From contig JAUYUA010000078.1 of the NCBI GenBank assembly GCA_030694935.1, forward strand, positions 1-54,072: a stretch of 54,072 nt of DNA, read 5' to 3'. A model generated the notes under the pieces. That model was not told the origin of the DNA. It saw only the letters and a program-made list of their open reading frames with translations, and did not search any database. Numbering within the stretch: the first letter of the stretch is position 1; each line of letters starts with the position of its first letter. Origin of the DNA: Lutibacter sp. GTDB taxonomy: Bacteria > Bacteroidota > Bacteroidia > Flavobacteriales > Flavobacteriaceae. The position numbers and the translations under genes were made by a program. Positions 203 through 35,785 of this stretch are shown piece after piece.

Positions 203-309
203 ATGAAACGAGCCATAACAAATTTTGATACACAGCAGAATGATTAATGGCGACCAGCCGGCAGGCAGGCAGGCTGCATCTGTACCAATAAAAAATAAAT
301 AATAAACAG
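203..309 (+). repeat. ATGAAA-flanked interspersed element, copy A
   Basis: This 107-bp copy starts ATGAAACGAGC and ends AAACAG immediately before the ATGAAA start of the MFS gene. It shares the body AACAAATTTTGAT..., GAATGATTAATGGCGA and the AT-rich tail with copies at 24776-24884, 24885-24972 and 35659-35785. A GC-rich insert (CCGGCAGGCAGGC) sits at about 255-275. Relative to the 88-bp copy C it is 19 bp longer and has one extra base near its start, so the mini open frame seen in C is broken here. Confidence 0.85.
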
Positions 310-1554
310 ATGAAAAATGTAACACTGGGACTCAAAGAAAACTGGAAACAGTTTACATTGCTCGTAATCATTAATGGTTTTGTTGGCGGTATGGTGGGAT
401 TGGAACGTTCCATTCTTCCGCAAATTGCAGAACAGGAATTTGCCATTGCCGCCAAAACAGCTATTCTTTCCTTCATTATTGTTTTTGGGATTGTAAAAGC
501 CATTACCAATTATTACACGGGAGCATTGGCCAATAAATACGGCAGAAAAAATTTATTGGTTGCCGGATGGCTTATTGCAATACCAATTCCTTTTATCTTA
601 ATGTATGCGCCAAACTGGAACTGGATTATAGCCGCCAATGTGCTTTTAGGAATAAATCAGGGTTTAACCTGGTCGAGCACGGTTGTTATGAAAATTGACC
701 TTGTTGGCGAAAAGCAAAGAGGTTTTGCAATGGGACTCAATGAATTTGCAGGTTACCTTTCAGTTGCCATAATTGCATTTTTAACTGGTTGGATTGCCGG
801 TAAATACGGCATCAGGCCCTATCCTTTTTACTTGGGGTTTGTTTTGGTGTTTTTTGGGCTCATTGGAAGTATTTTCTGGATTAAAGACACCAAACATCAC
901 GTTGCCAAAGAAACAACAACCAGCACCGTTCCCAAACTAAAAAATATTTTTTGGGATACCACGTGGAAAAATAAAAACTTAGGTTCAGTCACACAGGCCG
1001 GGTTAATTAACAATTTGAATGATGGAATGGTATGGGGAATATTCCCAATATTGCTGGCCAATAAAAATTTCACCTTAGAACAAATTGGTGTCATAGCCGC
1101 AATTTATCCTGGCGTTTGGGGACTTGGGCAGCTTTTTACAGGTAAAATGGCCGACAAATTTTGCAAAAAAGATATGCTCTTTACCGGAATGTTTTTACAG
1201 GCCATCGCATTGGTTTCATTTGTTTGGGCAAATACGATGTTCGAATATGCAGTGCTTTCATCGGTTTTGGGTTGGGGAACAGCCATGGTTTATCCAACAT
1301 TTTTGGCAACAGTGGCAGAAAATACACATCCGCAGGATAGAGCAAAAAGCATCGGAATATTTCGACTTTGGAGAGATTTAGGCTATGCAATAGGCGCTAT
1401 CTTAACAGGTATAATAGCAGATTTAATTAGCATCAATGCTTCAGTGCTTTTTATTGGCTTCCTTACTTTCCTATCTTCAATGATTATCTATTTCAGAATG
1501 AGATGCGGTGAGGGCACTTCTGTAAAAATATTACATTGGATTTTACGTAAATAA
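310..1554 (+). CDS. MFS transporter
   Basis: The 414-residue protein is a major facilitator superfamily permease with about 12 hydrophobic segments. The family's loop signature G-x-L-x(4)-G-R-K is visible at residues 71-80 (GALANKYGRK), with a weaker equivalent near GKMADKF in the second half. Length fits the family. The substrate cannot be read from sequence. The start codon is the ATGAAA that abuts repeat copy A. A rhodanese gene follows 9 bp downstream, probably in the same operon. Paired MFS and rhodanese genes suggest handling of a sulfur- or oxyanion-type compound, but that is inference. Confidence 0.88.
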   Translation: MKNVTLGLKENWKQFTLLVIINGFVGGMVGLERSILPQIAEQEFAIAAKTAILSFIIVFGIVKAITNYYTGALANKYGRKNLLVAGWLIAIPIPFILMYAPNWNWIIAANVLLGINQGLTWSSTVVMKIDLVGEKQRGFAMGLNEFAGYLSVAIIAFLTGWIAGKYGIRPYPFYLGFVLVFFGLIGSIFWIKDTKHHVAKETTTSTVPKLKNIFWDTTWKNKNLGSVTQAGLINNLNDGMVWGIFPILLANKNFTLEQIGVIAAIYPGVWGLGQLFTGKMADKFCKKDMLFTGMFLQAIALVSFVWANTMFEYAVLSSVLGWGTAMVYPTFLATVAENTHPQDRAKSIGIFRLWRDLGYAIGAILTGIIADLISINASVLFIGFLTFLSSMIIYFRMRCGEGTSVKILHWILRK

Positions 1555-1563
1555 CCTAATAAA

Positions 1564-1866
1564 ATGAAAACACAAGACAACTGCATCACGCTTGATATTT
1601 TGAAACAAAGACTGAAAAGCAAAAACAAAATCATCATTATTGATGTAAGAAGCCTTGAAGAATACAACGAAAAGCACATCCCCAATGCCATCAATATTCC
1701 ACTTGAAAAATTAGATGACGAAGCAAAAACTTTTGATAGAAATAAATTTTACATAACCGTTTGCGGCAAAGGCGGAAACCGCTCCGCTACAGGAGCAGAA
1801 AAATTAAATCAAATGAAGTTCAATGCCATTTGGCTTTGTGGCGGAACATTTGGTTGGTTCGAATAA
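1564..1866 (+). CDS. Rhodanese-like single-domain protein
   Basis: This 100-residue protein has the rhodanese fold signatures: IIDVRSLEEYNEKHIPNAINIP near residues 25-46, the nucleophile loop at Cys67 (CGKGGNRS) and the closing GGTFGW. Rhodaneses carry sulfane sulfur on this cysteine. The loop here is C-x5-R, one residue longer than the common C-x4-R; Cdc25-type members of the fold have this longer spacing. It has no signal peptide, so it should be cytoplasmic. It probably shares an mRNA with the MFS gene upstream. Confidence 0.85.
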   Translation: MKTQDNCITLDILKQRLKSKNKIIIIDVRSLEEYNEKHIPNAINIPLEKLDDEAKTFDRNKFYITVCGKGGNRSATGAEKLNQMKFNAIWLCGGTFGWFE

Positions 1867-2001
1867 AACATAGACCCTAAAGATTTTACCTATTTATTTG
1901 AAGTATATTTTCCTGCCAATTTGAATTTTTGGCAAGGAAATGTTTTCAAAAATTAATAAAAAACATCAAGAATTCAAATCGAAACTTTAATCATCAAAAT
2001 T

Positions 2002-2110
2002 CCTCGAGGCTCTGCCTCGGGGTATAGAGGAAAGTTTGAAAACCTTAGGTTTTCATCAAACTAAAATTTGGCTTTCTTCCTATTGATACCTCGATGGCTC
2101 TGCCTCGGGG
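2002..2110. repeat. Stem-loop block between convergent genes
   Basis: Two near-identical units (CCTCGAGGCTCTGCCTCGG and a variant with CGATGG) lie at 2002-2022 and 2089-2110. The first folds into a 9-bp stem, CCTCGAGGC with GCCTCGGGG, around a TCT loop. Between them AGTTTGA and TCAAACT enclose AAACC-TT-AGGTTT. The block sits between the convergent rhodanese and S9 peptidase genes and could end transcription in both directions. Confidence 0.6.
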
Positions 2111-2114
2111 TAAT

Positions 2115-4922
2115 TCATTTCTGAGTTTTAACCTGAATGAGTTCTAAACCCTGATTGATTCCTTTTTCCATAGCGGGCACGCCACGATCCATCCAAACTG
2201 GTTTTAAATCACCTTTTAAATAGTAATCAAAAAACTGCGCCATTCTGATATTGAAATCTTTGCGATTTTGATATTTTACAGGCCAGTGCGGTTCCTCATT
2301 ATAATTTAAAAACCAAGAAGGTTTTCCCAACCTTCGCAAGGCTGTAAAAAATTCAATTCCTTGATACCAAGGCACATGACCATCGGCATCATTGTGCATA
2401 ATTAACAATGGCGTATTTATTTTATCCATATTAAAAATGGGTGAATTTTCTGTATAACGGGCAGGATATTCCCAAGGAGTTCCACCAATTCTGCTTTGCG
2501 TATGCTCGTATTGAAACTGCCTGCTTAAACCTGTCCACCAACGAATTCCGCCATAAGCGCTTATCATATTTGCCACAGGCGCACCAGATTCCGCCGCCTT
2601 AAAAATATTGGTTTTAGTCACCAAATAAGCAATTTGGTATCCACCCCAACTATGGCCTTGCACACCAATATTATCTTTGTCTATAAATCCTTTTTCTATC
2701 AAGGAAGTGACTCCGGGAATAACACAATTGAAAGCACTTTCGCCAGGATAACCAATACGATAATGAATATCCGGATTGAAAATCACATATCCGCGACTTG
2801 CGTAAAAGCTATAATTGATGGAAGATCGACCGTAAGCAGGCGCTCTGTGGCTATTCAAATCATCGGAACTTTTTTCATAAAAATTGACCAATAGCGGGTA
2901 TTTTTTATTTGGATCAAAATTTTCGGGCTTAATCAGCATTCCGGTAAGTTCGATTCCATCTAAGGAAATCCAATTTATCAACTCGGCAGTTCCCCAATTA
3001 TAGTCGCTTTGCTGCGGATTTGCATTGCTCATTACAACAGGTTTTTTAAAATTTAAATCGGAATAAAGGATGTTTGGAAATTCCGTAAAAGATTCTCGGG
3101 TAAAAATTACTTTTTCACTATCTCTGGCTTTTACGGGCGTTGAATAACTGTAGGGTTCCATAAGAAGCTGTTCCCCTTTTAAAGTTTTAAAATTCAATTT
3201 ATAATAACCAGAGAACTTATTAATTTCATTAAAATTGGTTAACAGCCAATCTTTGTCTGTTGAAATAAATCGTTCTTCATCATCCATTTTTGCATATCTG
3301 AAAACTGTTTTACCGACACGGCCATTGGTTAATTTCCTGCTTTGGCCATTTTCCGGATTAAATTCCCAAATATCATATCGGTCATAGATGATAATGGCTG
3401 CATCATTGGCGATCCAGCCCGCCAAACCATAAGAATTGGGATGGTCGGGAGAATCATTTAATTCATCATAAAAAACTTTGCCGGAAGTCAGTTTTTTTAC
3501 CTTTTTTGAAGCTAAATGAACCGTAAACCACTCACGATCAATAGGATTGTATCCATAGGCATATTTTCCGTTAGGGCTCAACATCACGCGCCCGGCGATA
3601 TTTTTTAATATTTCAGTGGTTTCACCAGTATTAATATTAACTACGGAATAATCCCTTGCATTTTGGCCAGTCCACTGACTTTCCAATTCATACGGCATGG
3701 ATGCATTTACCAATGCAAACAGGGCATTTCCTTCATTTCCGATTTCAGCTTCCGGAAATTCAACAGTTGCCAACTGATATAATTTATCATTGTTTAAGTG
3801 AATTACCGTTTCAAAAGATTTCTTTAGATCATTTTTAAGTTGCAGTTCTTGCACGGTATATAATTGCGGTTCATTGTAGGTCCACACTTCAACATTTACA
3901 ATTTCTTCGGCTAACAACATCGTATCTTTAACGATGGGCGGTTTTGCCAAGCCAAAATAAAGTTTGGTTTCATCTTTTGAAAAAGTGATTTTTCCATCGG
4001 CAGAAACCAAGTAATTTTTTGGTGCCGTAGTGTTGTCAACTTGTTTTTTTGCCAATTTATTCCCATCACGCCAAATATACAATTCATTAGGCCGCACCTG
4101 AACTTTTGTGGTATCTGCATCAACAATAAAACCTAAATTTTTGCCGGAATCACTAAAACTTAACTGCGCATATTTTGCCTTATCGCCTTTAAAAATATTG
4201 CTGATTTTGTTGCTCTCCAAATCGATGATATAAACCCCTTCACCCGAAGTTGAATCAACACCCGAAGTTGTGTAAGCCAAGCGTTTTCCCTCTTTTGCAA
4301 AAATAAAATCTTTCACAAATTTAACGGTGTCTTGCTTGCCTGAGTTAAGATTTCTGATAACCAAATGATAACCTGTATCTTTACCGACTTTTTTTATCTT
4401 TTTTACGGTTTTCGGCTTTATGCTGTCGGCTGTTTTACTTTCAGGTTTTTTCTTTTTGTCAACCTTTGCTTCATCTAACATATAAGCCACATAACCTTCC
4501 CTTTTTTCAGGAATTTTATAGGACTTCATATTGGCAATTTTAAGCAAAGATTTATCCTTTAAATTATAAATACCCAAGGTGTCTTTAGGGAGTTTTTCTT
4601 TGTCAATTTTTTTGCGTTGCAATGCTCTGATGCTGTCTTTAAAAGGCTTAACCGTAAAAATGGCAAACTTAGCATTGTGGGTAAATTTTCCTTCTTCACC
4701 TCTATGTTGTTCAAAAATTAGGTTGGCATTGGCATCTTTTATTTTTAAAAATTGATCTTGCTCCCCTTTTTCCAAAGAATACATTATAAAATTTCCATCA
4801 GGAGAAATGGCTTTGTTCTTAATAGAATTCCAAATTTCAACATCGGCGTGGTCCAATATTTTTTTTTGTGCTGAAATTGTTAACGAAGCAAATAACAATA
4901 AAATTGATAAAAATGTTCTCAT
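2115..4922 (-). CDS. Secreted S9 family (prolyl oligopeptidase type) peptidase
   Basis: The 935-residue protein starts with a Sec signal (MRTFLSILLLFASLTISAQ), then a long N-terminal beta-propeller-like region containing a lysine-rich linker near residues 150-180. The C-terminal alpha/beta-hydrolase domain shows the S9 triad: Ser758 in GHSWGGYQ, Asp847 in HNDADGHVPW and His879 in EEPHWP. Members cleave short peptides, often after proline. It is likely periplasmic or surface-attached. It stands alone, divergent from the M16 pair, and converges on the rhodanese gene. Confidence 0.92.
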   Translation of the reverse strand: MRTFLSILLLFASLTISAQKKILDHADVEIWNSIKNKAISPDGNFIMYSLEKGEQDQFLKIKDANANLIFEQHRGEEGKFTHNAKFAIFTVKPFKDSIRALQRKKIDKEKLPKDTLGIYNLKDKSLLKIANMKSYKIPEKREGYVAYMLDEAKVDKKKKPESKTADSIKPKTVKKIKKVGKDTGYHLVIRNLNSGKQDTVKFVKDFIFAKEGKRLAYTTSGVDSTSGEGVYIIDLESNKISNIFKGDKAKYAQLSFSDSGKNLGFIVDADTTKVQVRPNELYIWRDGNKLAKKQVDNTTAPKNYLVSADGKITFSKDETKLYFGLAKPPIVKDTMLLAEEIVNVEVWTYNEPQLYTVQELQLKNDLKKSFETVIHLNNDKLYQLATVEFPEAEIGNEGNALFALVNASMPYELESQWTGQNARDYSVVNINTGETTEILKNIAGRVMLSPNGKYAYGYNPIDREWFTVHLASKKVKKLTSGKVFYDELNDSPDHPNSYGLAGWIANDAAIIIYDRYDIWEFNPENGQSRKLTNGRVGKTVFRYAKMDDEERFISTDKDWLLTNFNEINKFSGYYKLNFKTLKGEQLLMEPYSYSTPVKARDSEKVIFTRESFTEFPNILYSDLNFKKPVVMSNANPQQSDYNWGTAELINWISLDGIELTGMLIKPENFDPNKKYPLLVNFYEKSSDDLNSHRAPAYGRSSINYSFYASRGYVIFNPDIHYRIGYPGESAFNCVIPGVTSLIEKGFIDKDNIGVQGHSWGGYQIAYLVTKTNIFKAAESGAPVANMISAYGGIRWWTGLSRQFQYEHTQSRIGGTPWEYPARYTENSPIFNMDKINTPLLIMHNDADGHVPWYQGIEFFTALRRLGKPSWFLNYNEEPHWPVKYQNRKDFNIRMAQFFDYYLKGDLKPVWMDRGVPAMEKGINQGLELIQVKTQK

Positions 4923-5360
4923 AAAATAAATTTTAAACCAAAAGATAAATATAGGTATTCAGATGAATATATTTAGTAAATAAAAATTATTTGAATTTTT
5001 TGCCATTGAACCCCATAATTTTGCGTTATATTTTAATGCTTTAAATTGCCTCTATATTTTACGCATACTATTTATTGTCAATTCTTAGATTGAACATCGG
5101 CAATTTTTCGTTGTCAAAAATCGCCAATTATATTTACAAAATCGGTGGTGAAATATGTCAAACTAAGGAACAGATCATTAAAAAAACACAATCTAAAATA
5201 TTGATTTTTTAATTTCAGAAATATTGTCGATATTTATTCAGAATTTAATCATTAATTTTGGCTGGCATCAACATAAGGACGCCCTATTTTTAGTCGTTTT
5301 TATCCAAGATTAAAAAATTGCTGAAATTCCCTAATGTTAAAACTAATTAATTTGTGTTTT
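4923..5360. other. Divergent promoter spacer
   Basis: This 438-bp AT-rich gap separates the S9 and M16 genes. I see no gene in it. On the plus strand it holds two TAATTTTG boxes (5016-5023 and near 5254) matching the flavobacterial TAnnTTTG element. Confidence 0.5.
4991..5023 (+). promoter_or_regulatory. Candidate promoter for the M16 operon
   Basis: TTG at 4991-4993 is followed after 22 bases by TAATTTTG at 5016-5023, close to the Bacteroidota housekeeping pattern. It would give a leader of over 300 nt, so the second TAATTTTG near 5254 may be used instead. Confidence 0.35.
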
Positions 5361-6674
5361 ATGAAAAAAATAACGCTCCTTTTCCTTCTTTTGCTAAGCT
5401 TTTCAGGCCAAGCGCAAATGAAATCTGATGATGTAAAAACTTTTACTTTAAAAAACGGCATGAAGTTTTTGGTGGTGGAAGATTTCTCCATCCCAAACGC
5501 CAATATGTATTTGTTTTACAAGGTTGGAAGTCGCAACGAATATCAGGGAATAACAGGACTTTCGCACTTTTTTGAACATATGATGTTCAACGGAGCCAAA
5601 AAATATGGCCCAAAACAATTTGACCAAACGATGGAATTTAACGGCGGTGCCAACAATGCCTATACCACCAAAGATGTGACGGTTTACACCAACTGGTTCC
5701 CTGCATCGGCGATGGAAGTGATCTTTGATTTGGAAGGTGACCGAATTTCCAGCCTCAGCATTGACCCAAAAATTGTGGAAAGCGAAAGAGGCGTTGTTTT
5801 AAGCGAGCGAAGCACCGGACTTGAAAATTCGCCTTGGCGCCAGTTATCAGAAGCTGTGGAAGCCACTGCTTTTATAGAACATCCTTATCATTGGTCGGTT
5901 ATTGGCTACGAAGATGATATGAAAAACTGGAAACAACAAGATTTAGAGCGTTATTTTAAAATGTATTATGCGCCCAACAATTGTGTGGTGGTTGTTTCTG
6001 GAGCCATCAAAATGGCTGAAGTTAAAAGATTGGCCGAAAAATATTTGGAACCAATTCCCGCACAACCCGAGCCTCCAAAAATAACCATTGCTGAACCGGC
6101 GCAAACTGGAGAACGAAGAATAACAGTCCAAAAAGAAGTCGCCACGCCTTATTTGATGTTGGCATATCATACGCCCGAAACCAAAAATGAAGATTATTAC
6201 GCGTTGAATATCTTAAGCGCAGTACTTTCAAGAGGACAATCGTCGAGACTGTATTCAGAGCTGGTTAATAAGAAACAGTTAGCCACTTCAGTATTCACCG
6301 ATTTTGGCGAGAGCTTTGACCCAAGTCTTTTCGGCATTTATGCCGTAGCGAATAAAGAGGTGAATCCCATAGATTTAGAAAACGCGATTTATGCTGAAAT
6401 TGAAAAAATAAAAAATGAAGGCATCAGCGAAGTGGAACTTCAGAAAATAAAAAACCAGAAATTGATGGAGTTCTACAATCAGGTTGAAACCATCAACGGC
6501 AAATCGAACAATATAGGAACGTACGAAGTGTTTTTTGGCGATTATAAAAAAATGTTCCAAGCACCAGATAATTACAATAAAATTACGGTTGCAGATGTGC
6601 AAAACGTCGCCAAAAAATATTTTAAAAAGAGCAACAGAACAGTAGGAGTTTTAAAAACAAATACAGAAGACTAA
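5361..6674 (+). CDS. M16 family zinc peptidase, catalytic subunit
   Basis: I chose the ATG at 5361, nine codons into the open frame, because it yields a clean signal peptide (MKKITLLFLLLLSFSGQAQ). The 437-residue product has the inverted zinc motif HFFEH at residues 69-73 and the third ligand Glu149, the spacing expected for the insulinase/processing-protease family. The C-terminal M16_C domain follows. It is predicted to act in the periplasm on peptides. The next gene, 4 bp downstream, encodes a partner M16 protein lacking the zinc motif, so the two likely form one peptidasome. Confidence 0.92.
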   Translation: MKKITLLFLLLLSFSGQAQMKSDDVKTFTLKNGMKFLVVEDFSIPNANMYLFYKVGSRNEYQGITGLSHFFEHMMFNGAKKYGPKQFDQTMEFNGGANNAYTTKDVTVYTNWFPASAMEVIFDLEGDRISSLSIDPKIVESERGVVLSERSTGLENSPWRQLSEAVEATAFIEHPYHWSVIGYEDDMKNWKQQDLERYFKMYYAPNNCVVVVSGAIKMAEVKRLAEKYLEPIPAQPEPPKITIAEPAQTGERRITVQKEVATPYLMLAYHTPETKNEDYYALNILSAVLSRGQSSRLYSELVNKKQLATSVFTDFGESFDPSLFGIYAVANKEVNPIDLENAIYAEIEKIKNEGISEVELQKIKNQKLMEFYNQVETINGKSNNIGTYEVFFGDYKKMFQAPDNYNKITVADVQNVAKKYFKKSNRTVGVLKTNTED

Positions 6675-6678
6675 TTAT

Positions 6679-8061
6679 ATGAAACCAATCGCACAAAAAC
6701 TCATCATTATCGGCCTGTTTTTTCTGACCGTTTCAAATATCACAGCACAAGGTTACAAATTGCCCGAATATACATCCTTCAAATTGCCAAATGGCCTAAC
6801 TGTTTATTTGATGGAACAACACGATGTTCCTGTTATCAGTGTTTCAGCAGTTTTGCCAGCCGGCGCTATTTACGACCATGAAAAAGCCGGATTGGCCTTT
6901 TTAACCGCCAAAGCGCTTAAACATGGCACAAAAAATTATAGCAAATTAAAGCTGGATGAAGAAATTGACTTTATCGGCGCTTATATCGGTACTGATGCCT
7001 CGAAAGAATTTGCAAGTGTTTCTTCAAAATTTGCAGCAAAGGATAAAGACAAAATGCTGACAATTATTAAAGAAATAATGCTGGATCCTGTTTTTAACGC
7101 TGAAGAGTTTGAGAAGGAAAAAAGCAGGCTCTTGGTGGGCCTTGAACAGCAAAAAGAAAGTCCGAGAGCGGTAATAGGCAATTATTTCGACAAGCTTTTG
7201 TATGGCAATCACGTTTATGGAAATACCATACAAGGAGATCTTTCAAGTATCGGAAAATTAACCGTGGAAGATATAAAAACCTTCTACAACACAAATTACA
7301 AACCCAATCAGGCAGCCATCAGCATTGTTGGAGATTTTTCATCAAAAGAAATGAAAAGAAAATTAACTGCATTGTTTTCAAACTGGAAAAAAAGCGAAAA
7401 TATAATTGAAATTCCAGCGCTAAAAAACATCGCTTCTCTATCTGAAAATAAAGTGCTGTTAATCAATAAAGACGATGCAAAAGAAACAACATTTTATATT
7501 GGCGCACCCGGCATAAGCAGAAACAATCCCGATTTTGTGGCTATTGAAGTGATAAACACCTTGTTTGGCGGCCGATTTACTTCGATGCTGAACGATGAAC
7601 TGCGCGTAAATACCGGTTTAACTTACGGAGCCAACAGCCGATTTAATACCTTAAAAAATGGCGGTTCTTTTGTAATCAGCACTTTTACTGCCAGCAAAAC
7701 TACCGAAGCCGCCATTGATAAATCGTTGGAGGTTTTAAACAAATTACACATAAACGGCATCGATGAAAAATCACTGACATCAGCCAAAAACTATGTAAAA
7801 GGACAGTTTCCGCCGCGTTATGAAACAACAAACCAGCTGGCGAACTTGCTTACACAAATGTTCTGGTACAATTTTGACGCCACTTTTATTGAAAATTTTG
7901 AAAAAAATGTTGACAGCTTAAATCTCGAAAAAGCCAACCAAATTATTGCGCAATATTTCCCAAAAAACAATTTTCAATTTGTGTTGGTAGGCAAAGCTGC
8001 CGACATCAAAAAAATTGCTGAAAAATATGGTGAAGTGACAGAAGTGAATATTAAGGACTGA
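6679..8061 (+). CDS. M16 family protein, non-catalytic subunit
   Basis: This 460-residue exported protein (signal MKPIAQKLIIIGLFFLTVSNITAQ) has both M16 halves but no HxxEH: the equivalent stretch reads LAFLTAKALKHGT. The C-terminal half keeps the Arg/Tyr substrate-binding signature (LRVNTGLTYGANS) known from the inactive subunits of two-chain M16 peptidases. It lies 4 bp after the catalytic gene, consistent with translational coupling. It probably helps close the chamber and bind substrate. Confidence 0.9.
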   Translation: MKPIAQKLIIIGLFFLTVSNITAQGYKLPEYTSFKLPNGLTVYLMEQHDVPVISVSAVLPAGAIYDHEKAGLAFLTAKALKHGTKNYSKLKLDEEIDFIGAYIGTDASKEFASVSSKFAAKDKDKMLTIIKEIMLDPVFNAEEFEKEKSRLLVGLEQQKESPRAVIGNYFDKLLYGNHVYGNTIQGDLSSIGKLTVEDIKTFYNTNYKPNQAAISIVGDFSSKEMKRKLTALFSNWKKSENIIEIPALKNIASLSENKVLLINKDDAKETTFYIGAPGISRNNPDFVAIEVINTLFGGRFTSMLNDELRVNTGLTYGANSRFNTLKNGGSFVISTFTASKTTEAAIDKSLEVLNKLHINGIDEKSLTSAKNYVKGQFPPRYETTNQLANLLTQMFWYNFDATFIENFEKNVDSLNLEKANQIIAQYFPKNNFQFVLVGKAADIKKIAEKYGEVTEVNIKD

Positions 8062-12827: not shown

Positions 12828-12983
12828 CTGCCGACCTTTTTGGTGGGCCTGCCGACCTTTTTGGTGGGCGTTTCCCGCCAGCTGGCAGGCCTGCCGGCAG
12901 GCAGGTCAGGCTATCACTACTCGCTTTTTTTAGTTGCGAAAAGCAACAAAAAAAGAGCTCAAACATACCGTTCTATCCTTAAC
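12828..12983 (+). repeat. GGGCGTTCCCC-type interspersed repeat, copy 1
   Basis: The element begins with a 21-bp tandem duplication (CTGCCGACCTTTTTGGTGGG, 12828-12848 and 12849-12869), then GGGCGTTTCCCGCCAGCTGG, the GC palindrome CCTGCCGGCAGG at 12890-12901, the shared CTACTCGC block, the hairpin GTTGC-GAAAA-GCAAC, and AGAGCTCAAACA. Related copies lie at 40837-40970 and, inverted, at 53676-53815; a diverged relative is at 42023-42140. Confidence 0.75.
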
Positions 12984-13337
12984 GCAACCTGAATTACAAA
13001 TTACGTCCCGATAGCTATCGGGATTTTACATTACGAATTATTCTCCATATTTCTCTGTGATTCTTAGTATTTTCTTTGTGAATTTCTTTGCAATAATTAT
13101 TTCACCATTTACACTAAGGCAAAAATGAGATACACAGAGCACTGCGAAATAGCTGATTTTAAAACCTATTAAATTTATATTTGTTAAACCTTTGGGTTTC
13201 CATAATTATTGGTGAAAATTTTCCAGCAAAGCAATTTCTTAGACCAAGCTAATAGGTTTTCAAAATGGGTTTGGTTAACCAAGTTTAGATGAAACTTACA
13301 TTTTGTGATGCTAAAAACAAATTTAAATTTTGAAAAT
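12984..13337. other. Repeat-rich spacer before the toxin-antitoxin locus
   Basis: No gene is apparent. The stretch holds a perfect 18-bp palindrome TCCCGATAGCTATCGGGA at 13004-13021, a diffuse CTCTGTG/CTTTGTG low-complexity block near 13040-13150, and an inverted pair AAAACCTATTA / TAATAGGTTTT spanning about 13160-13262. These look like dispersed intergenic repeats. Confidence 0.5.
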
Positions 13338-23785: not shown

Positions 23786-24775
23786 CTAAACCAATTTATT
23801 CGCTATCAAATATTCAGCAATTTGAATGGTGTTTGTTGCGGCGCCTTTTCTAAGATTATCGGCCACAATCCACATATTTAAAGTGTTTGGCTGAGATTCG
23901 TCTCTTCTTATTCTGCCTACAAAAACTTCATCTTTATTGTGGGCGTAAATTGGCATTGGATACGTATTTGTGTCTAAATTGTCCTGCACAATCACGCCTG
24001 GAGTTTCGCTTAACAACTTGCGTACTTCGCCCAAATCAAAATCCTTTTCAAACTGAACGTTCACGGCTTCTGAATGTCCGCCCGAAGTTGGAATACGAAC
24101 TGCCGTTGCGGTAACGGTAAAAGAATCGTCATTTAATATTTTCTTTGGTTCTTTCACCAATTTCATTTCTTCTTTGGTGTAGCCATTTTCTAAAAACACA
24201 TCACACTGCGGAATGGCATTTCTGTTAATTGGATAATGATAAGCCATTTCACCTTTGATGCCTTTCGACTCATTTTCCAGTTGTTGCACCGCTTTTACGC
24301 CGGTTCCGGAAACAGATTGGTAAGTTGAAATTACCACACGTTTCATATTGTATTTTTTGTGCAAAGGCGCCAAAGCCATCACCAATTGAATGGTTGAACA
24401 GTTTGGATTTGCAATAATTTTATCAGCTTTTGTTAACACATCGCCATTAATTTCAGGAACCACCAATTTTTTGGTTGGATCCATTCTCCAGGCAGAAGAA
24501 TTGTCCACAACCGTAGTGCCAACTTCCGCAAATTTTGGGGCCCACAATTCAGAAGTGGTTCCGCCAGCAGAAAATAATGCGATATCCGGACGTGCATTCA
24601 CAGCGTCTTGCATCCCGATAAGGGTATAGTTTTTTCCTCTATATTCCATTTGCTTCCCAACAGAACGTTCTGAAGCAACCAACAATAATTCGGTAATTGG
24701 GAAATTTCTTTCCGCCAACACTTGTAACATCACGTTTCCTACCATTCCGGTAGCGCCTACTACAGCTACTTTCAT
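23786..24775 (-). CDS. asd: Aspartate-semialdehyde dehydrogenase
   Basis: The 329-residue enzyme has the N-terminal NADP site VVGATGMVGNVML, the nucleophile Cys126 in NPNCSTIQ and the catalytic His in RIPTSGGHSEAV. It reduces aspartyl phosphate to the semialdehyde for lysine/diaminopimelate, threonine and methionine synthesis. The start codon is ATGAAA. Two tandem copies of the interspersed element sit between this start and what looks like the native leader, lengthening the leader by 197 bp. Confidence 0.95.
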   Translation of the reverse strand: MKVAVVGATGMVGNVMLQVLAERNFPITELLLVASERSVGKQMEYRGKNYTLIGMQDAVNARPDIALFSAGGTTSELWAPKFAEVGTTVVDNSSAWRMDPTKKLVVPEINGDVLTKADKIIANPNCSTIQLVMALAPLHKKYNMKRVVISTYQSVSGTGVKAVQQLENESKGIKGEMAYHYPINRNAIPQCDVFLENGYTKEEMKLVKEPKKILNDDSFTVTATAVRIPTSGGHSEAVNVQFEKDFDLGEVRKLLSETPGVIVQDNLDTNTYPMPIYAHNKDEVFVGRIRRDESQPNTLNMWIVADNLRKGAATNTIQIAEYLIANKLV

Positions 24776-24884
24776 CTGTTTAAATTTTATTTTTTAGTTG
24801 GAACAGATTGCTGCCTGCCTGCCGGCAGGTAGGTTCGCCATTAATAATTCCTTTGTATCTCAAAATTTGTTTTGCTCGTTTCAT
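24776..24884 (-). repeat. ATGAAA-flanked interspersed element, copy B
   Basis: This 109-bp copy directly precedes the asd start codon on the minus strand and is abutted head to tail by copy C. It begins ATGAAACGAGCAAAACAAAT and ends TTTAAACAG. Its GC-rich insert (24811-24833, containing CCTGCCGGCAGG) makes it 21 bp longer than copy C, a multiple of three, and an ATG-to-TAA frame is open through the whole unit. Confidence 0.9.
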
Positions 24885-24972
24885 CTGTTTAAATTTTATT
24901 TTTTAGTTGGAACAGATGCTGTTCGCCATTAATCATTCTTTTGTAAATCAAAATTTGTTGGGCTCGTTTCAT
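24885..24972 (-). repeat. ATGAAA-flanked interspersed element, copy C (uninterrupted 88 bp)
   Basis: This is the shortest copy and lacks the GC-rich insert. Read on the minus strand, it starts ATGAAACGAGCCCAACAAAT and is open for 27 codons to a TAA located 4 nt before the ATGAAA of copy B. The sequence before it (AAAAAATAATTAG) probably is the original asd leader. Confidence 0.9.
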
Positions 24973-26423: not shown

Positions 26424-26426
26424 GGA

Positions 26427-26545
26427 ATGACCGAAGTCCGAAGTCGGAAGACCGAAGTCGAAAATAAATTCCCCTCTTGAGACCTGTGCTGAGCGCGGTC
26501 ACTGAGCGTAGCCGAAGTGGAGTCGATGTAGGGGTTAGGGGTGTG
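26427..26545. repeat. Mixed dispersed repeats after trhP
   Basis: The spacer has GAAGTCCGAAGTCGGAAGAC-type low-complexity sequence, then CCCCTCTTGAGA, GTCACTGAGCGTAGCCGAAG and GTAGGGGTTAGGGGTGTG. Similar GGAAGTC and GGGTTAGGGG strings recur near 41430-41480 and 41871-41970. Confidence 0.6.
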
Positions 26546-28693: not shown

Positions 28694-30975
28694 CAAAAAA
28701 AACGACAAATAACAATCAATTTTCAAAGTATATAAAATGGTTTTGGATGACCATTCTTGGAGGCATTTTATTTATAATCCTGCTATTTTTATTGGCTTCA
28801 TTTGGTGCTTTCGGTACGCTTCCCACTTTTGAAGAATTGGAAAGTCCAGAAAGAAACACCGCTTCCGAAGTGATTTCTATTGATGGAAAAACATTGGGGA
28901 AATATGCTTATGAAAACAGAACGCCCGTAAAATTTAAAGACCTCCCTGAAAATTTAATAAATGCTTTGATTGCTACAGAAGATGAGCGATTTTATGATCA
29001 CTCCGGAGTAGATTTTAGAGCCTCTATTCGCGCGGTTGTAATGCTTGGAAAAGATGGTGGAGGAAGTACCATTACCCAGCAATTGGCCAAACTTTTATTT
29101 CATGGAGAAGGATCCCGAAACATTGTGGAAAGAGTTTTGCAAAAAGTGAAGGAATATGTCATAGCCATCCGTTTGGAACGCCAATATACCAAAGAGGAAA
29201 TATTAACCATGTACCTTAACAAATATGATTATTTGAATTTGGCTGTGGGTATTCGTTCCGCATCTCGAATTTATTTCGGAAAAGAACCCATCAACTTAAA
29301 AATACCGGAGTCGGCCATGCTGGTTGGAATGCTTAAAAACGCCTCTTATTTTAATCCGCTAAAAAGAGCGGAATTGGTTAAAAATCGCAGAAACGTGGTT
29401 CTAAACCAAATGTATAAGAACGATTTTATCACGAAAGAACAAAGAGAAGCTTTTAAGGCAAGCCCTTTAAACTTAAATGTAAACAAGGAAGGGCATAGCG
29501 ATGGTACAGCAACTTATTTTAGGGAATATTTGCGCGATTTTATGAAAAACTGGGTAAAAAACAATCCAAAACCCGATGGTACAAATTACAATTTGCAAAG
29601 GGACGGACTTAAAATTTATGTAACTATAGATTCTCGTATGCAAAAATACGCCGAAGAAGCGATGCTGGAGCATATGGCAAATTTGCAACGGGTATTTTAT
29701 AAGGAACAGAAGCGAAACAAAACAGCTCCTTTTTATGATTTGGATGAAAAACAGGTTGCGATTACCATGGAACAGGCGATGAAACGTTCAGACCGGTGGA
29801 TTCGCATGAGAAAAAATGGTGCTTCAGAAAGTGAAATTAAAGCTTCATTTAATGAAAAAACGAGCATGAGCGTCTTTTCTTATAAAGGAGAAATAGACAC
29901 CATTATGTCTCCGTATGATTCCATTAAATACTATAAACATATTTTACGCTCTGGATTAATGTCGGTTGAACCGCAAACAGGCCATGTGAAAGCTTGGGTT
30001 GGCGGTGTAAATTACAAACACTTTCAATTTGATGCGGTGAAACAACAAAAACGTCAGGTTGGTTCTACCTTTAAACCTTTTGTGTATGCGGCAGCCATCA
30101 ACCAATTAAAATTGTCGCCGTGCTATAAATTGCCAAATACGCCTTATACCGTTTTGAAAGAGAAATATGGAATGGCACAAGATTGGACACCGAAAAATTC
30201 GGACAATAAATATGGCGGTGAACTCACCTTAAAAAATGCCTTGGCAAATTCGATTAACGTAATAACCGTGAAATTAATCGATATGGTTCATCCAAAAACA
30301 GTGGTTAATTTTGCAAACAGTATTGGGATTGAAACTGAAATCCCTGAAGTGCCTTCCATAGCGCTGGGTTCTGTAGATTTATCCTTGTATGAAATGGTTG
30401 GCGCTTATGCAACTTTCGCAAACAAAGGTTTAAGGATTGAACCTATGGTTTTAATGAGAATAGAAGATAAAAACGGATTGGTATTGGAGCAATTTATGCC
30501 AAATTCAAACGAAGCGATTAGTGAGGAGTCGGCTTATGTAATCACCAATTTATTGGAAGGTGTGACAGAGTCGGGCTCAGGTATTCGTTTGCGAACCAAA
30601 GGAGCAACTTATGCCGATAACATGGTTACAGGTTATCCCTACGGATTTACAAATCCAATCGCAGGAAAAACAGGAACCACCCAAAATCAGTCCGATGGTT
30701 GGTTTATGGGCATTGTGCCTAATTTGGCAACCGGCGTTTGGGTTGGCGGTGAAGACAGGGCGGTCCATTTTGCCGGATTGAGCAAAGGACAAGGCGCTAC
30801 GATGGCATTGCCAATTTGGGCAATATATTACAGAAAATTATATGCAGATCCTACGTTGAGCGTAAGCAAAGGAGCTTTTGAAAGACCCGAAGTGTTGACC
30901 ATAGAAACAGATTGCAGAAAAGGGAATACAGACGCAACCTCTGATCTAAATTTAGATGATGATCCTGAATTTTAA
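28690..30975 (+). CDS. Bifunctional penicillin-binding protein 1A
   Basis: The 761-residue enzyme has a membrane anchor (residues about 17-40), a GT51 glycosyltransferase domain with catalytic Glu97 (TEDERFYDH) and GGSTITQQLAK, and a transpeptidase domain with Ser459 (STFK), Ser521-x-Asn523 (SIN) and Lys660-Thr-Gly (KTGTT). It polymerises and crosslinks peptidoglycan in the periplasm. It overlaps gldH by 4 bp and precedes scoA by 10 bp. Confidence 0.95.
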   Translation: MTKKTTNNNQFSKYIKWFWMTILGGILFIILLFLLASFGAFGTLPTFEELESPERNTASEVISIDGKTLGKYAYENRTPVKFKDLPENLINALIATEDERFYDHSGVDFRASIRAVVMLGKDGGGSTITQQLAKLLFHGEGSRNIVERVLQKVKEYVIAIRLERQYTKEEILTMYLNKYDYLNLAVGIRSASRIYFGKEPINLKIPESAMLVGMLKNASYFNPLKRAELVKNRRNVVLNQMYKNDFITKEQREAFKASPLNLNVNKEGHSDGTATYFREYLRDFMKNWVKNNPKPDGTNYNLQRDGLKIYVTIDSRMQKYAEEAMLEHMANLQRVFYKEQKRNKTAPFYDLDEKQVAITMEQAMKRSDRWIRMRKNGASESEIKASFNEKTSMSVFSYKGEIDTIMSPYDSIKYYKHILRSGLMSVEPQTGHVKAWVGGVNYKHFQFDAVKQQKRQVGSTFKPFVYAAAINQLKLSPCYKLPNTPYTVLKEKYGMAQDWTPKNSDNKYGGELTLKNALANSINVITVKLIDMVHPKTVVNFANSIGIETEIPEVPSIALGSVDLSLYEMVGAYATFANKGLRIEPMVLMRIEDKNGLVLEQFMPNSNEAISEESAYVITNLLEGVTESGSGIRLRTKGATYADNMVTGYPYGFTNPIAGKTGTTQNQSDGWFMGIVPNLATGVWVGGEDRAVHFAGLSKGQGATMALPIWAIYYRKLYADPTLSVSKGAFERPEVLTIETDCRKGNTDATSDLNLDDDPEF

Positions 30976-30985
30976 AAGATAAATT

Positions 30986-31687
30986 ATGATAAATAAAGTA
31001 GTTAATAATGCACAAGACGCTTTACTGGGAGTAGAAAACGGCATGACTTTTATGCTTGGCGGTTTTGGTTTATGCGGAATCCCAGAAAATTGTATTTCTG
31101 AATTGGTGAGATTGGGCGTTAGCAATTTAACGTGCATCTCCAACAATGCAGGCGTTGATGATTTTGGGTTAGGGCTTTTATTAAAAAAGCATCAAATCAA
31201 AAAAATGATTTCTTCTTATGTAGGAGAAAATGAAGAATTTGAACGCCAAATGCTTTCGGGCGAAATGGATGTAGAATTGATTCCGCAAGGAACTTTAGCT
31301 GAACGTTGCAGGGCTACAGGAGCCGGAATTCCGGCATTTTTTACGCCTGCCGGATACGGCACAGAAGTGGCGGAAGGAAAAGAAACCCGAGAGTTTAACG
31401 GCAAAATGTATGTTTTGGAACATGCCTTTAATCCGGAGTTTGCTTTTGTGAAAGCTTGGAAGGGCGATACCGCAGGAAATCTTATTTTTAAAGGAACTGC
31501 ACGTAATTTTAATCCGATGATGGCAATGGCCGGAAAAATTACCGTTGCTGAAGTTGAAGAATTGGTTGAAGCAGGAGAATTGGATCCAAACCAAATTCAT
31601 ACACCGGGTATTTTTGTGCAGCGTATTTTTCAGGGAAAAGATTATGAGAAAAGAATTGAACAACGCACAGTAACTCCAAAATCTTAA
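30986..31687 (+). CDS. scoA: 3-oxoacid CoA-transferase subunit A
   Basis: The 233-residue subunit shows the family's glycine-rich opening (FMLGGFGLCGIPENCISEL) and the CoA-binding region GAGIPAFFTPAGYGTEVAEG. With ScoB it moves CoA between succinate and acetoacetate-type acids in the cytoplasm. The two genes are 3 bp apart. Confidence 0.92.
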   Translation: MINKVVNNAQDALLGVENGMTFMLGGFGLCGIPENCISELVRLGVSNLTCISNNAGVDDFGLGLLLKKHQIKKMISSYVGENEEFERQMLSGEMDVELIPQGTLAERCRATGAGIPAFFTPAGYGTEVAEGKETREFNGKMYVLEHAFNPEFAFVKAWKGDTAGNLIFKGTARNFNPMMAMAGKITVAEVEELVEAGELDPNQIHTPGIFVQRIFQGKDYEKRIEQRTVTPKS

Positions 31688-31690
31688 ACA

Positions 31691-32347
31691 ATGGCTTTAT
31701 CAAAACAAGAAATAGCGCAGAGAATTGCACAGGAATTACAAGATAAATGGTATGTTAATCTGGGAATTGGAATTCCAACCTTGGTGGCCAATTACATCCC
31801 TAAAAACATAGATGTTGTCTTTCAGTCGGAAAACGGAATGCTGGGAATGGGACCTTTCCCAATTGAAGGCGAAGAAGATGCCGATTTAATCAATGCCGGA
31901 AAACAAACGGTCACTATTTTAAAGGGCGGTTCGTTATTTGACTCTGCAATGAGTTTTGCCATGATTCGCGGACAACACGTTCAGTTAACTGTTTTAGGAG
32001 CGATGGAAGTTTCTCAAAATGGGGATATAGCGAACTGGAAAATTCCGGGAAAAATGGTTAAAGGAATGGGCGGGGCGATGGACTTGGTGGCTTCCGCAGA
32101 AAATATTATTGTGGCCATGATGCACACGGATAAATCTGGAGCATCAAAATTATTAAAAAGATGTTCGTTGCCTTTAACAGGCGTGAATTGCGTTAAAAAA
32201 GTAGTGACAAATTTGGCTTATTTAGAAATTAAAAACAATGCATTTTATCTTATAGAAAGAGCTCCGGGCGTTTCAGTGGAAGAAATTATTGCTGCTACAG
32301 AAGGAACTTTAATTGTGGAAGGCGAAATTCCGGAAATGAAGTTTTAA
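31691..32347 (+). CDS. scoB: 3-oxoacid CoA-transferase subunit B
   Basis: The 218-residue subunit has the active-site glutamate Glu47 in SENGMLGMGPFP, which forms the glutamyl-CoA thioester, and the GIGIPTLVANYIP opening. It is complete and translationally close to scoA. Confidence 0.93.
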   Translation: MALSKQEIAQRIAQELQDKWYVNLGIGIPTLVANYIPKNIDVVFQSENGMLGMGPFPIEGEEDADLINAGKQTVTILKGGSLFDSAMSFAMIRGQHVQLTVLGAMEVSQNGDIANWKIPGKMVKGMGGAMDLVASAENIIVAMMHTDKSGASKLLKRCSLPLTGVNCVKKVVTNLAYLEIKNNAFYLIERAPGVSVEEIIAATEGTLIVEGEIPEMKF

Positions 32348-32390
32348 CAGATAAGTTGATGCTTTCCTTTTATGAAATAATAAAAACTCA

Positions 32391-33152
32391 ATGAAAATAA
32401 TATCATACAATGTCAACGGAATCAGGGCAGCCTTAAACAAAGGTTTTATTGATTGGTTGGTAGCCGCAAATCCCGACGTTATTTGTTTACAGGAAATAAA
32501 AGCGCAAAAAGAACAGCTCGATTTAAGTTTGTTTGAAAATGCCGGTTACAATTATCACTATTGGTTTTCGGCTGAAAAAAAGGGTTACAGCGGCGTGGCG
32601 GTTTTATCAAAAACAAGACCCGACAAAGTGGTTTATGGCACCGGAATCGAAGCAATGGACTATGAAGGAAGAAATTTACGGGTAGATTTTGCGAACGTAT
32701 CAATAATGAGCTTATATTTACCATCCGGAACCAATGACAATCGATTGGAGTTCAAACTAACCTACATGGCTCAATTTCAGAACTATGTAAACAACCTCAA
32801 AAAAGAACTTCCCAATCTCATTATTTGTGGCGATTATAACATTTGCCATACAGAAATAGACATTCATAATCCGGTACAGAATAAGGACACCTCAGGATTT
32901 TTACCCGTTGAACGCAACTGGCTGGGGAATTTTATTGACAGTGGTTTTACAGATTCGTTTCGCCATTTAAACAAAGATCCTCACCATTACAGCTGGTGGA
33001 GTTATAGGGCAAATGCAAGAAACAACAACAAAGGCTGGCGCATAGATTACCATATGGTAAGCAACGAGATGAAAGATAACATTAAAAGAGCCTATATTTT
33101 ACCGGAAGCAAAACATTCCGACCATTGCCCGGTAGTTATTGAAATTGATTAA
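32391..33152 (+). CDS. xth: Exodeoxyribonuclease III family AP endonuclease
   Basis: The 253-residue protein is a complete EEP-fold nuclease: ISYNVNGIRAAL at the start, metal-binding Glu35 (CLQEIK), the ICGDYNICHTEIDIHNP core and the terminal KHSDHCPVVIEID with the catalytic Asp-His. It incises DNA at abasic sites during base excision repair. Confidence 0.94.
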   Translation: MKIISYNVNGIRAALNKGFIDWLVAANPDVICLQEIKAQKEQLDLSLFENAGYNYHYWFSAEKKGYSGVAVLSKTRPDKVVYGTGIEAMDYEGRNLRVDFANVSIMSLYLPSGTNDNRLEFKLTYMAQFQNYVNNLKKELPNLIICGDYNICHTEIDIHNPVQNKDTSGFLPVERNWLGNFIDSGFTDSFRHLNKDPHHYSWWSYRANARNNNKGWRIDYHMVSNEMKDNIKRAYILPEAKHSDHCPVVIEID

Positions 33153-33175
33153 ATTAAATAAATAAAAGCAGTACA

Positions 33176-34126
33176 ATGTTCAAAAAAACAGCAATTCTAT
33201 TCATTATCGCAATTACATTTAATTCGTGTGTATCAAAAAAAGTATATCAGGAACTCGAAACAAAATTCAATAATTTACGTTCCTCAAACACTGCATTAAT
33301 TGAAGAAAAAGACAATTTATTGGCTGCAAAAAAAACCTTGGAAGCCGATTTAGAAAAATTGAACAGCGATTACAGTGCGCTTAAAACCCAAAAGGAAATA
33401 TTGGATAGTGAATTCGCTTCTGTTCAAAATAAATATAAAAATTTAGACGAATCTTATAATGTGCTCTCCACGCAAAGTTCAAAAAAACTGGCCGAGCAAT
33501 CTCAAAAAAACCAGGAATTATTGTATCAATTGGAAGAAAAAGAAAGAAAATTGGCCTTAGAAAGCGACCGATTGGAAAAACTTCAAAATGAATTGGCACA
33601 ACGCTCCAATCAAATTAACGAGCTTCAAGGTTTAATTGATGCAAAAGAAGCCCAAATGCAACAATTGAAAAATGCTATTTCCAGCGCATTGCTCAATTTT
33701 GAAGGAAAGGGATTGACTGTAGTTCAAAAAAATGGTAAAATCTATGTTTCTATGGAAAACAAATTACTGTTCGATTCGGGAAGCTGGGCAGTAGGAAGTG
33801 AAGGAAAAGTTGCTGTAGAACAATTGGCCAGTGTGTTGGCGAAAAATCCGGATATCAATGTGCTTATTGAAGGGCATACAGACAATGTTCCATACACAGG
33901 GGCAACTATCACAGACAACTGGGATTTATCCGTTAAACGAGCTACAGCAATTGTAAGAATTTTACAAAATAAAGGCGTAAACCCAACGCAAATTACAGCG
34001 GCAGGTCGAAGCGAATACGTGATGGTTGGTTCCAATGCTACTCCAGAAGGAAAAGCAAAAAACAGAAGAATTGAAATTATTTTAGCGCCTAATTTAGACG
34101 AAATTTCAAAACTTTTAAACAACTAA
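33176..34126 (+). CDS. OmpA-family lipoprotein with coiled coil
   Basis: The 316-residue protein has a lipoprotein signal (ITFNSC, Cys18), a long coiled coil from about residue 22 to 165 (repeated Leu/Glu/Lys heptads), and a C-terminal OmpA peptidoglycan-binding domain with IEGHTDNVPYTG and NRRIEIIL. It likely tethers the outer membrane to the cell wall. Its neighbours, a PBP and a lytic transglycosylase, fit an envelope role. Confidence 0.9.
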   Translation: MFKKTAILFIIAITFNSCVSKKVYQELETKFNNLRSSNTALIEEKDNLLAAKKTLEADLEKLNSDYSALKTQKEILDSEFASVQNKYKNLDESYNVLSTQSSKKLAEQSQKNQELLYQLEEKERKLALESDRLEKLQNELAQRSNQINELQGLIDAKEAQMQQLKNAISSALLNFEGKGLTVVQKNGKIYVSMENKLLFDSGSWAVGSEGKVAVEQLASVLAKNPDINVLIEGHTDNVPYTGATITDNWDLSVKRATAIVRILQNKGVNPTQITAAGRSEYVMVGSNATPEGKAKNRRIEIILAPNLDEISKLLNN

Positions 34127-34132
34127 ACTCTT

Positions 34133-35659
34133 ATGAAAAATTTACTATACATTGCGTTTTTATTAACGTTTACTTATGGATTCTCACAAAAGAAAACGGA
34201 GCCAATAAAAATTCAGAATAGTGAAAATGCCAAAGTTCATTTTAATGACGGACCGGCATTATTTTTTACAAATAAAGATTCATTAATTCTTCAGGTTCAT
34301 CCGCAAGCGATGCTTATTGACAGTTTATGGATGAATAAATTGATAAAATCTCCTTTATATGACAAGGAATTATATGTATTGGGCAATGATGAAATGTTTG
34401 TTGCCGACCTTGAAGAATTATCGACCGAATTGTTAAAATCACGTTTAAAACATTTAAACAGCAAAACACCTTTTAAAATTGAATACAATCCGGATCTGGA
34501 ACAAATCATAAGAACCTATTTGCAAAAAAGAAAATCGTCAATTTCCACCATTATGGAGCGGGCGCGTTATTTTTTCCCTATGTTCGAAGAACATTTGGCG
34601 AAATACAAAATTCCGATGGAACTAAAGTATTTGGCGGTTATCGAGTCTGCTTTAAATCCAAATGCGCGATCTCGTGTGGGAGCAACAGGTTTGTGGCAAT
34701 TTATGTATCCAACAGGGAAATTTTACAATTTAGAAGTGAGTTCGTATATAGATGAACGTTCAGATCCATACAGGGCTACAGAAGCGGCCTGCAAATATTT
34801 AGAAAGTTTGTATAAAATGTATGGTGATTGGAGTATGGTTTTGGCGGCCTACAATTACGGTCCGGGTAATGTTTCCAAAGCCATCAGACGCGCCGGTGGA
34901 AGCACCAATTATTGGACTATCCGTAAATATTTACCTAAAGAAACCGCAGCCTATGTTCCGGCTTTTTACGCCACTTTGTATCTTTTTGAATATGCAAAAG
35001 AACACAATTTAAAATCGAAGCAAAATGCAATTTCTTATTATGCAACAGATACCGTCCAAGTTAAAAGACAGTTGACTTTTGCACAAATCAATGAAACTTT
35101 AAATGTTGATATTGAGGTTCTTAAATTTTTAAATCCGCAATATAAACTGGATATTATTCCTTATATTAAAGATAAAAACTATATACTAACCTTACCGATA
35201 AAAGATATCGGAAATTTTGTAAGCAATGAAAGGTTGATTTATGCCTATGCCGATTTAGCCGATGCAAAAGAAGAAAAGCCATTGTTGGAACTCATAAAAT
35301 TGGAAGATAAGATTACGCACAAGGTTAGAAGTGGCGATAATTTAGGAAAAATAGCCCATAAACATGGTGTTGCCGAAAGCGATTTGAAAAAATGGAACAA
35401 TTTAAAAAGCTCAAGAATATTGGTAGGGCAAAATTTGGTGGTTTATCCTAAAAACATCAATCCGGTTGTTGCCCAAAAAGCGACTCCAGCCAATAGCGAA
35501 AGCAAAGAACAAACGTATTACATTGTTAAATTGGGAGATTCATTATGGTCAATCGCAAAAAAATATTCAAATGTTTCTGTGCAAAATATTAAAGATTGGA
35601 ACAATATTTGGAGCGTAAATAGTCTAAAACCCGGAATCAAATTAAAAATATTTAATTAA
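34133..35659 (+). CDS. Lytic transglycosylase with two LysM domains (MltD type)
   Basis: The 508-residue exported protein (signal MKNLLYIAFLLTFTYGFSQ) has an SLT domain with catalytic Glu171 (LAVIESALNP), GATGLWQFMYPTGK and AAYNYGPGNV. Two LysM motifs follow, near residues 398-443 (HKVRSGDNLGKIAHKHGV) and 462-507 (YYIVKLGDSLWSIAKKY). It cleaves peptidoglycan glycan strands. It begins 6 bp after the OmpA gene. Its stop codon TAA shares its final base with the first base of repeat copy D. Confidence 0.93.
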   Translation: MKNLLYIAFLLTFTYGFSQKKTEPIKIQNSENAKVHFNDGPALFFTNKDSLILQVHPQAMLIDSLWMNKLIKSPLYDKELYVLGNDEMFVADLEELSTELLKSRLKHLNSKTPFKIEYNPDLEQIIRTYLQKRKSSISTIMERARYFFPMFEEHLAKYKIPMELKYLAVIESALNPNARSRVGATGLWQFMYPTGKFYNLEVSSYIDERSDPYRATEAACKYLESLYKMYGDWSMVLAAYNYGPGNVSKAIRRAGGSTNYWTIRKYLPKETAAYVPAFYATLYLFEYAKEHNLKSKQNAISYYATDTVQVKRQLTFAQINETLNVDIEVLKFLNPQYKLDIIPYIKDKNYILTLPIKDIGNFVSNERLIYAYADLADAKEEKPLLELIKLEDKITHKVRSGDNLGKIAHKHGVAESDLKKWNNLKSSRILVGQNLVVYPKNINPVVAQKATPANSESKEQTYYIVKLGDSLWSIAKKYSNVSVQNIKDWNNIWSVNSLKPGIKLKIFN

Positions 35660-35785
35660 TGAAACGAGCATAACAAATTTTGATACACAAGGGAATGATT
35701 AATAGCGAACTTGCCTGCGGCAAGCAGGTCTGCCAGCCGGCAGGCAGGCTGCAGCTGTTACCGCTAAAAAATAAAATTTAAACAG
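35659..35785 (+). repeat. ATGAAA-flanked interspersed element, copy D
   Basis: This 127-bp copy fills the whole gap between the transglycosylase stop and the DUF4837 ATGAAA start. It begins ATGAAACGAGCATAACAAAT and ends TTTAAACAG. The GC-rich insert at about 35711-35749 is double-length. The frame seen in copy C is kept to the same terminal TAA, apart from one in-frame TAA at codon 5. Confidence 0.9.

Follow-up and report, generated by a model that had tools for sequence, protein, structure and literature searches.

Short element copies and their junctions

The window examined here is positions 1 to 54,072 of contig JAUYUA010000078.1 (forward strand) from Lutibacter sp. (GenBank assembly GCA_030694935.1), and the subject of the analysis is a short repeated element, 88 bp long in its simplest form, that lies directly before ATGAAA, mostly where this motif starts a gene. 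A sequence-only reading of the window had described four copies at three loci, with common ends and unrelated genes downstream; the coordinates, the ends and the genes were all borne out, and every copy starts with ATGAAACGAGC, finishes with AAACAG and is followed by ATGAAA. The first copy (203-309, + strand; 107 bp, with a nested GC-rich palindrome) stands 5' of an MFS gene (310-1554), of which the host ATGAAA at 310-315 (+) is the start. The second and third form a tandem pair on the reverse strand: the proximal member (24776-24884; 109 bp, with the palindrome) and the distal member (24885-24972; 88 bp, without it) precede asd (semialdehyde dehydrogenase, 23786-24775, -), which starts at the host ATGAAA at 24770-24775 (-), a site that is empty in relatives and has one ATGAAA there. 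The fourth copy (35659-35785, +; 127 bp, with the palindrome) is 5' of a DUF4837 gene (35786-36760) starting at the host ATGAAA at 35786-35791 (+), and it begins on the final A of the TAA stop codon of the upstream SLT/LysM gene. At the MFS locus, the copy is preceded directly by the 3' noncoding right end of a 1,576-bp IS110-family insertion sequence (IS), cut by the contig start (1-202, +) and ending with AATAAATCATAAACAG, so that the order is IS right end, short copy and gene.

In the host genome, a Lutibacter-like assembly from a metagenome, 70 exact left ends ATGAAACGAGC and 73 matching pieces by BLAST (E up to 10) were found; thus, the copies are not a chance occurrence. In this genome, 46 of 52 terminal copies adjoined ATGAAA, compared with 80 of 353 called gene starts; two of the 52 adjoined an IS left end, one a diverged copy, and 49 other sequence. 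Among 332 relaxed matches (including some chance ones outside the two main left-end forms), the left end was exactly ATGAAACGAGC in 262 and ATAAAACGAGC in 10. After filtering, 285 distinct copies remained, and for 266 of them (all but 19) the right end was assignable; the motif that followed was ATGAAA in 256, ATGAAT in three, ATGATA, GTGAAA and ATGAAG in two each, and ATGAAC in one (L069), where the copy meets a contig edge and its end was placed wrongly. The left ATGAAAC therefore looks element-borne and nearly fixed, and the right motif host-borne and variable, and the exchange point lies within or at the edge of the ATGAAA motif. Of the proposed six-base duplication, the ATGAAA on both sides stood, but the left one belongs to the element and the right one can differ. 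Matches with nhmmer were full length in 361 of 452 cases (overlapping loci counted), and the partial matches away from locus ends came from palindrome-split copies, from diverged families and, in a few cases, from copies that were rearranged or interrupted.

Orthologous sites without a copy have a single ATGAAA at the junction, which indicates insertion. Once the insert had been taken out of the asd query, 21 fetched loci of relatives spanned the junction, and 19 of these aligned without a break; the short copy was present in two relatives; at one locus (L370, 98% identical), there was one ATGAAA, with identical flanks beside the junction on both sides. The DUF4837 site was empty in eight loci, exactly at the junction in two (L377 and L380) and with small indels in the rest. 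Further empty sites were found at CoaE, MnmA-type and other genes; in the case of CoaE, the start codon overlaps the upstream TGA stop, and neither is destroyed by insertion. A candidate empty site was obtained for 24 of 162 terminal copies; several of these candidates proved to be self matches or to belong to other families of element, so that we relied on the named ones; the MFS site was left out of this comparison because of the IS end upstream. Together with the junction counts, these sites support insertion at ATGAAA. In two relatives, asd leaders without a copy (L372 of genome G021 and L375 of genome G026) finish with AAAATTTAAACAG and AAAAATAAACAG, respectively; these resemble the element right end and are possibly scars of a lost copy.

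That the element inserts exactly at start codons, as had been suggested, proved true only as a preference. Gene starts were found at 35 of 44 classifiable sites (30 by script and five by reading, in which L046, L059, L052, L243 and L050 were changed from non-start to start; eight terminal copies too near a locus end were left out), compared with 85 of 187 in the background, namely the ATGAAA hexamers, start or noncoding, in 454 kb of the host genome (p = 4e-5; for the uncorrected automatic count of 30 of 44, p = 0.007). The other nine sites were non-start ATGAAA (one ATGAAG), and eight of these nine were upstream of a same-strand gene (background, 58 of 102; p = 0.08, not significant). In genome G116, which is complete, belongs to another genus of the family and holds many short copies, 21 of the 23 terminal copies stand at the opening of a frame that is at least 100 codons long (23 terminal copies and one tandem copy matched the set pattern among the 37 loci read). 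The target preference is thus for both the ATGAAA hexamer and start codons, with start codons over-represented.

Outside the host, 28 of 60 genomes searched (the host included) had matches, all within the genus except for one weak match, and 13 relatives had at least 15-34 matches each, these being lower bounds from the part of the candidates that was scored. Among the matches listed, public contigs with the core were mostly from Lutibacter, with some from Gelidibacter, Flavobacteriia and Bacteroidetes. The exact core pattern occurred, among 296 genomes of the order, in the host genome and G116. A second short family (ATGAAACGCCTACAAC...GGCGTTCCATTTGAC..., ending in CAA directly before ATG) has the same architecture and is mixed into arrays of the first (L110, L148, L170, L171 and L188); as a query it matched 23 of 38 genus genomes, many of the matches being first-family copies. 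Rfam gave no family and one chance-level match for window positions 1-1000, the short element was unmatched in plasmid sequences, and neither the element pattern nor the transposase described below was matched in viral contigs.

An IS110-family element with the same ends

The partner IS was recognised through the sequence upstream of the MFS copy, which is repeated at other contig starts and beside an IS110-type gene; by genome-wide presence alone, IS110 had looked negative. The full element (1,576 bp; bases 653-2228, reverse strand of L317) begins with ATGAAACATCCATGAC, ends with AATAAATCATAAACAG and encodes a transposase of 413 amino acids, and window positions 1-202 are 99.0% identical to its bases 1374-1576 (blastn). 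The protein has an N-terminal DEDD (RuvC-like) domain and a C-terminal Transposase_20 domain (Pfam DEDD_Tnp_IS110, 5e-25; Transposase_20, 1e-24) with scores above the curated cut-offs, and it matches the NCBIfam model for the IS110 family RNA-guided transposase (1.3e-81; 274 bits, cut-off 140). Downstream of the transposase gene lies a noncoding region of 260 bp, an arrangement of the IS1111 type, which is partly conserved, as shared blocks, in two relatives (L402 and L418). Domains and tail both fit the IS110/IS1111 family.

All six right ends found with the exact 29-base pattern in the fetched loci read ATCATAAACAG followed directly by ATGAAA, in one orientation (the counts of right and left ends cover the fetched parts of the host genome). 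Insertion of the 1,576-bp IS is therefore site- and orientation-specific, as in the rest of its family. The host ATGAAA beside five of the six opens pgk (395 codons, confirmed with Pfam) and frames of 411, 276, 159 and 50 codons, that is, a long open reading frame (ORF) in four of the five; the sixth right end is window 1-202. Of the three left ends found, two immediately follow a short copy, starting next to its AAACAG. The sequence-only reading knew of no described element with this target rule, but a full-length member of a described family obeys it in the same genome. An IS relative in G026 is 55-58% identical in protein and likewise begins with ATGAAACATCCATGAC, and among plasmid sequences the transposase has many IS110 matches, none reaching 60% identity.

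The ends of the IS and the short element were compared by alignment against mononucleotide shuffles. Their left ends align beyond ATGAAAC, with none of 2,000 shuffles reaching the score, and their right ends align likewise (0/2,000); four comparisons were made, with 0/2,000 in each. The short element thus has both IS ends (approximately 46 bp of the left and approximately 24 bp of the right) and lacks the transposase, as does a non-autonomous derivative. From these comparisons, we consider it likely that the 88-bp element derives, as a non-autonomous miniature, from an insertion sequence of the IS110 family (IS110/IS1111, DEDD transposase), and it would be moved in trans; the 1,576-bp IS is its probable parent.

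The transposase and the noncoding guide RNA of the IS would act in trans on the short element, the ends would be joined into a circle (AAACAG abutting ATGAAAC), and the circle would be recombined into ATGAAA, the exchange taking place inside the motif or at its border. The choice of target may come, as a more tentative step, from the noncoding RNA of the IS, since GATGAAA occurs in the tail at IS positions 1370 and 1424 (two ATGAAA were present in 53 of 5,000 shuffles of the tail). Because the element itself begins with ATGAAA, a stop codon that overlaps the start from upstream can be preserved together with the downstream start; insertion would therefore be nearly harmless, and tandem arrays would accumulate at one site. 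At gene starts, ATGAAA is a common and short target that would suffer little when hit.

Several observations weigh against this derivation. Close IS relatives were found only in the host genome and G026 (tblastn over the fetched loci), and PF02371 was unmatched in the element-rich genomes G002, G004, G005, G015, G021, G023, G029 and G034. The complete G116 has four PF02371 loci, of which one fails to align and the others align at 27-34%. For L317 and L418, the tail RNA folded no better than shuffles (the L402 tail folds better, with 6 of 200 shuffles as good), and a 9-base match (AGATGAAAC) between the tail and the joined ends is equalled in 153 of 5,000 shuffles. The miniature does not by itself predict the conserved hairpin around the host ATG that is described below, and all the evidence is sequence comparison, with no transposition observed. 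The IS breaks contigs of the host genome (its right end stands at the beginning of five contigs and its left end at that of two), and its loss from metagenome-assembled genomes (MAGs) is therefore expected; such dropout of a multi-copy IS can explain its absence from element-rich MAGs, but not from the complete G116, which needs another reason for having only distant IS110 proteins, such as loss of the IS.

The same gap is what speaks for an independent element resembling the mycobacterial MIRU, moved by something else, with the IS110 element having merely converged on or captured its ends: many genomes have the short element but no detectable related IS, and the MIRU follows a similar insertion rule. 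Yet both ends are homologous beyond the target motif, and the IS and short copies occupy the same junctions and lie adjacent to each other; we regard this alternative as improbable.

The GATGAAA pair and the 9-base match in the tail are a lead to a guide, not proof. A more far-reaching possibility, which we consider rather unlikely, is an IS110-type lineage with its guide set to ATGAAA, the start codon and a following lysine codon, whose miniature passengers carry into genes the CAT-N-TG arm of the hairpin, altered in concert with its partner from subfamily to subfamily, as a piece of the guide or as a portable start-codon switch. If this were true, an ATGAAA guide would amount to a self-restoring safe landing site before hundreds of genes.

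The hairpin at the host ATG and other possible movers

The short element has an arm, CAT-N-TG, that is complementary to its own end plus the host ATG. The pair at N varies by family, being C-G in most and G-C, A-T or T-A in others, so that all four Watson-Crick forms occur; CAGCTGT, with a mismatch at the A of ATG, is present in 42 of 189 distinct copies. The 5' arm is absent from copies in seven loci of HGW-Bacteroidetes-3 (one MAG). As a separate observation, these loci (L121, L139, L154, L166, L168, L181 and L202), at different genes, have the palindrome TCCCGAATTTTCGGGA in place of the ATG-pairing arm. The IS right end as read lacks the CAT-N-TG arm. RNAalifold, applied to a MAFFT alignment of all families, found only two pairs because the hairpin arm was misaligned; the hairpin pairs were thus counted by script. 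In the sense-strand RNA, of 200 shuffles each, none folded as well in family A, one in family B and 36 in the second family, and the z score, a signal of family A, was -4.0 for sense RNA, -1.0 for bottom-strand DNA and -1.7 for sense-strand DNA. Wobble-type pairs exceeded A-C-type pairs (11 versus 3 positions), favouring the sense strand in family A. The hairpin may be a relic of a guide or an RNA switch.

A fold whose 3' arm includes the host ATG, whose middle pair covaries among families and which exceeds shuffles in families A and B (less so in the second family) is also what a conserved, non-mobile regulatory leader of a regulon, sequestering the start codon as an RNA switch, would show. 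Such a leader would hardly leave empty orthologous sites with one ATGAAA, stand in tandem arrays, precede unrelated genes and some non-start ATGAAA, or share its ends with an IS, and the copies with a mismatch at the A of ATG or without the 5' arm also speak against it; we find this explanation very improbable.

Little credence can likewise be given to movement by an HUH/Y1 transposase (IS200/IS605 or RAYT), in which case the element would be REP-like or PATE-like and would travel as a folded single strand, the enzyme cutting the bottom strand after TTTCAT. The junction polarity agrees with the bottom-strand rule of IS200/IS605; by a hand count, Y1 matches occur in 13 of the 14 Lutibacter genomes rich in the element and in 7 of the other 24 (Fisher p = 2e-4), and G116 has them too; and a short copy stands before the GTG start of one RAYT gene (L243). 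Against these, in 20 scanned regions around Y1 matches, a part of the Y1 genes, copies were found only in L243 and L252, and no Y1 gene lay between short-element ends, neither of these two being flanked on both sides. By reading, several Y1 regions are flanked by other repeats, and the IS200-type ends there differ; G017, rich in the second family, has no Y1 match; the structure favours the sense strand, not bottom-strand DNA; and both ends are shared with the IS110 element. We thus rejected Y1 transposition despite the genome-level correlation. Several RAYT-type Y1 transposase genes in Lutibacter (L243, L246, L249, L250, L257 and L259) lie close to other repeats, as judged by reading the sequence.

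Copying by target-primed reverse transcription (TPRT-like) was also rejected: no 5'-truncated series was seen, and RVT_1 was unmatched in the element-rich genomes G002, G004, G009, G014, G015, G017, G021, G029 and G034.

Comparison with known systems and other repeats of the window

The mycobacterial MIRU described by Supply and co-workers reportedly inserts at DTGA overlaps of start and stop codons, and we know of no identified mover for it. Like the MIRU, the present element is short, occurs both in tandem and dispersed, and is inserted where a start codon lies; what sets it apart is an accompanying IS that has the same ends. Read from the first ATG of each of 254 copies, the frame closes within 16 codons in 215, further on but still within the element in 36, and beyond the right end in three. 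In only two of the 254 does the stop overlap the next ATG, as in the small ORF of the MIRU, which links an upstream stop with a downstream start. The derivation from an IS110-family element would tie start-codon-inserting bacterial repeats to a known family of RNA-guided recombinases, and it would offer a lead to the mover of MIRU-like repeats.

The IS resembles the IS110/IS1111 elements with a bridge RNA or seekRNA (IS621, ISEc11 and ISEc21) in its DEDD and Transposase_20 domains, its 260-bp noncoding tail and its sequence- and orientation-specific insertion. It differs in its target, the ATGAAA start-codon motif, compared with REP, attC or other named sites in the parts of the IS110 literature consulted; in addition, natural miniatures here outnumber the IS copies found, and the guide is putative. 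A mini-IS with ends of 29 and 16 bp moves when RNA and transposase are supplied separately (PMC11187229), and so does a 22-bp donor with the RNA in trans (PMC11208160). By analogy with these short-ended constructs, the short element is best read as the natural counterpart of the hand-built mini-IS of the published assays, and it would supply a natural case of mini-IS110 donors mobilised in trans. In titles and the openings of abstracts, we found no start-codon-inserting IS110 and no Lutibacter element.

Like bcr1 of Bacillus cereus, the element is a short many-copy repeat that shows features of mobility and has a brief motif (TTTAT in bcr1) repeated at its site; the sequence and target are different, and in the consulted part of PMC6542083, bcr1 has no start-codon link or IS partner. 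REP/RAYT systems, as described in part of PMC3733652, also consist of short, structured, dispersed repeats, but no RAYT flanked by the present ends was found, and the short copies here lie at gene starts.

Other repeats were also observed in the window. The GC-rich palindrome (CCTGCCTG..CGGCAGGCAGG) occupies one fixed spot inside many short copies and is also found alone; its positions are 245-276, 12881-12912, 24809-24840, 35714-35753, 42091-42130 and 53767-53798, and it is probably a separate palindromic repeat. An 84-base repeat unrelated to the short element is present at 12904-12987 and 40878-40961 (89% identical), and short degenerate repeats of the GACCGAAGTCGGAAG type lie at 41440-41480, 41867-41973 and 26426-26463.

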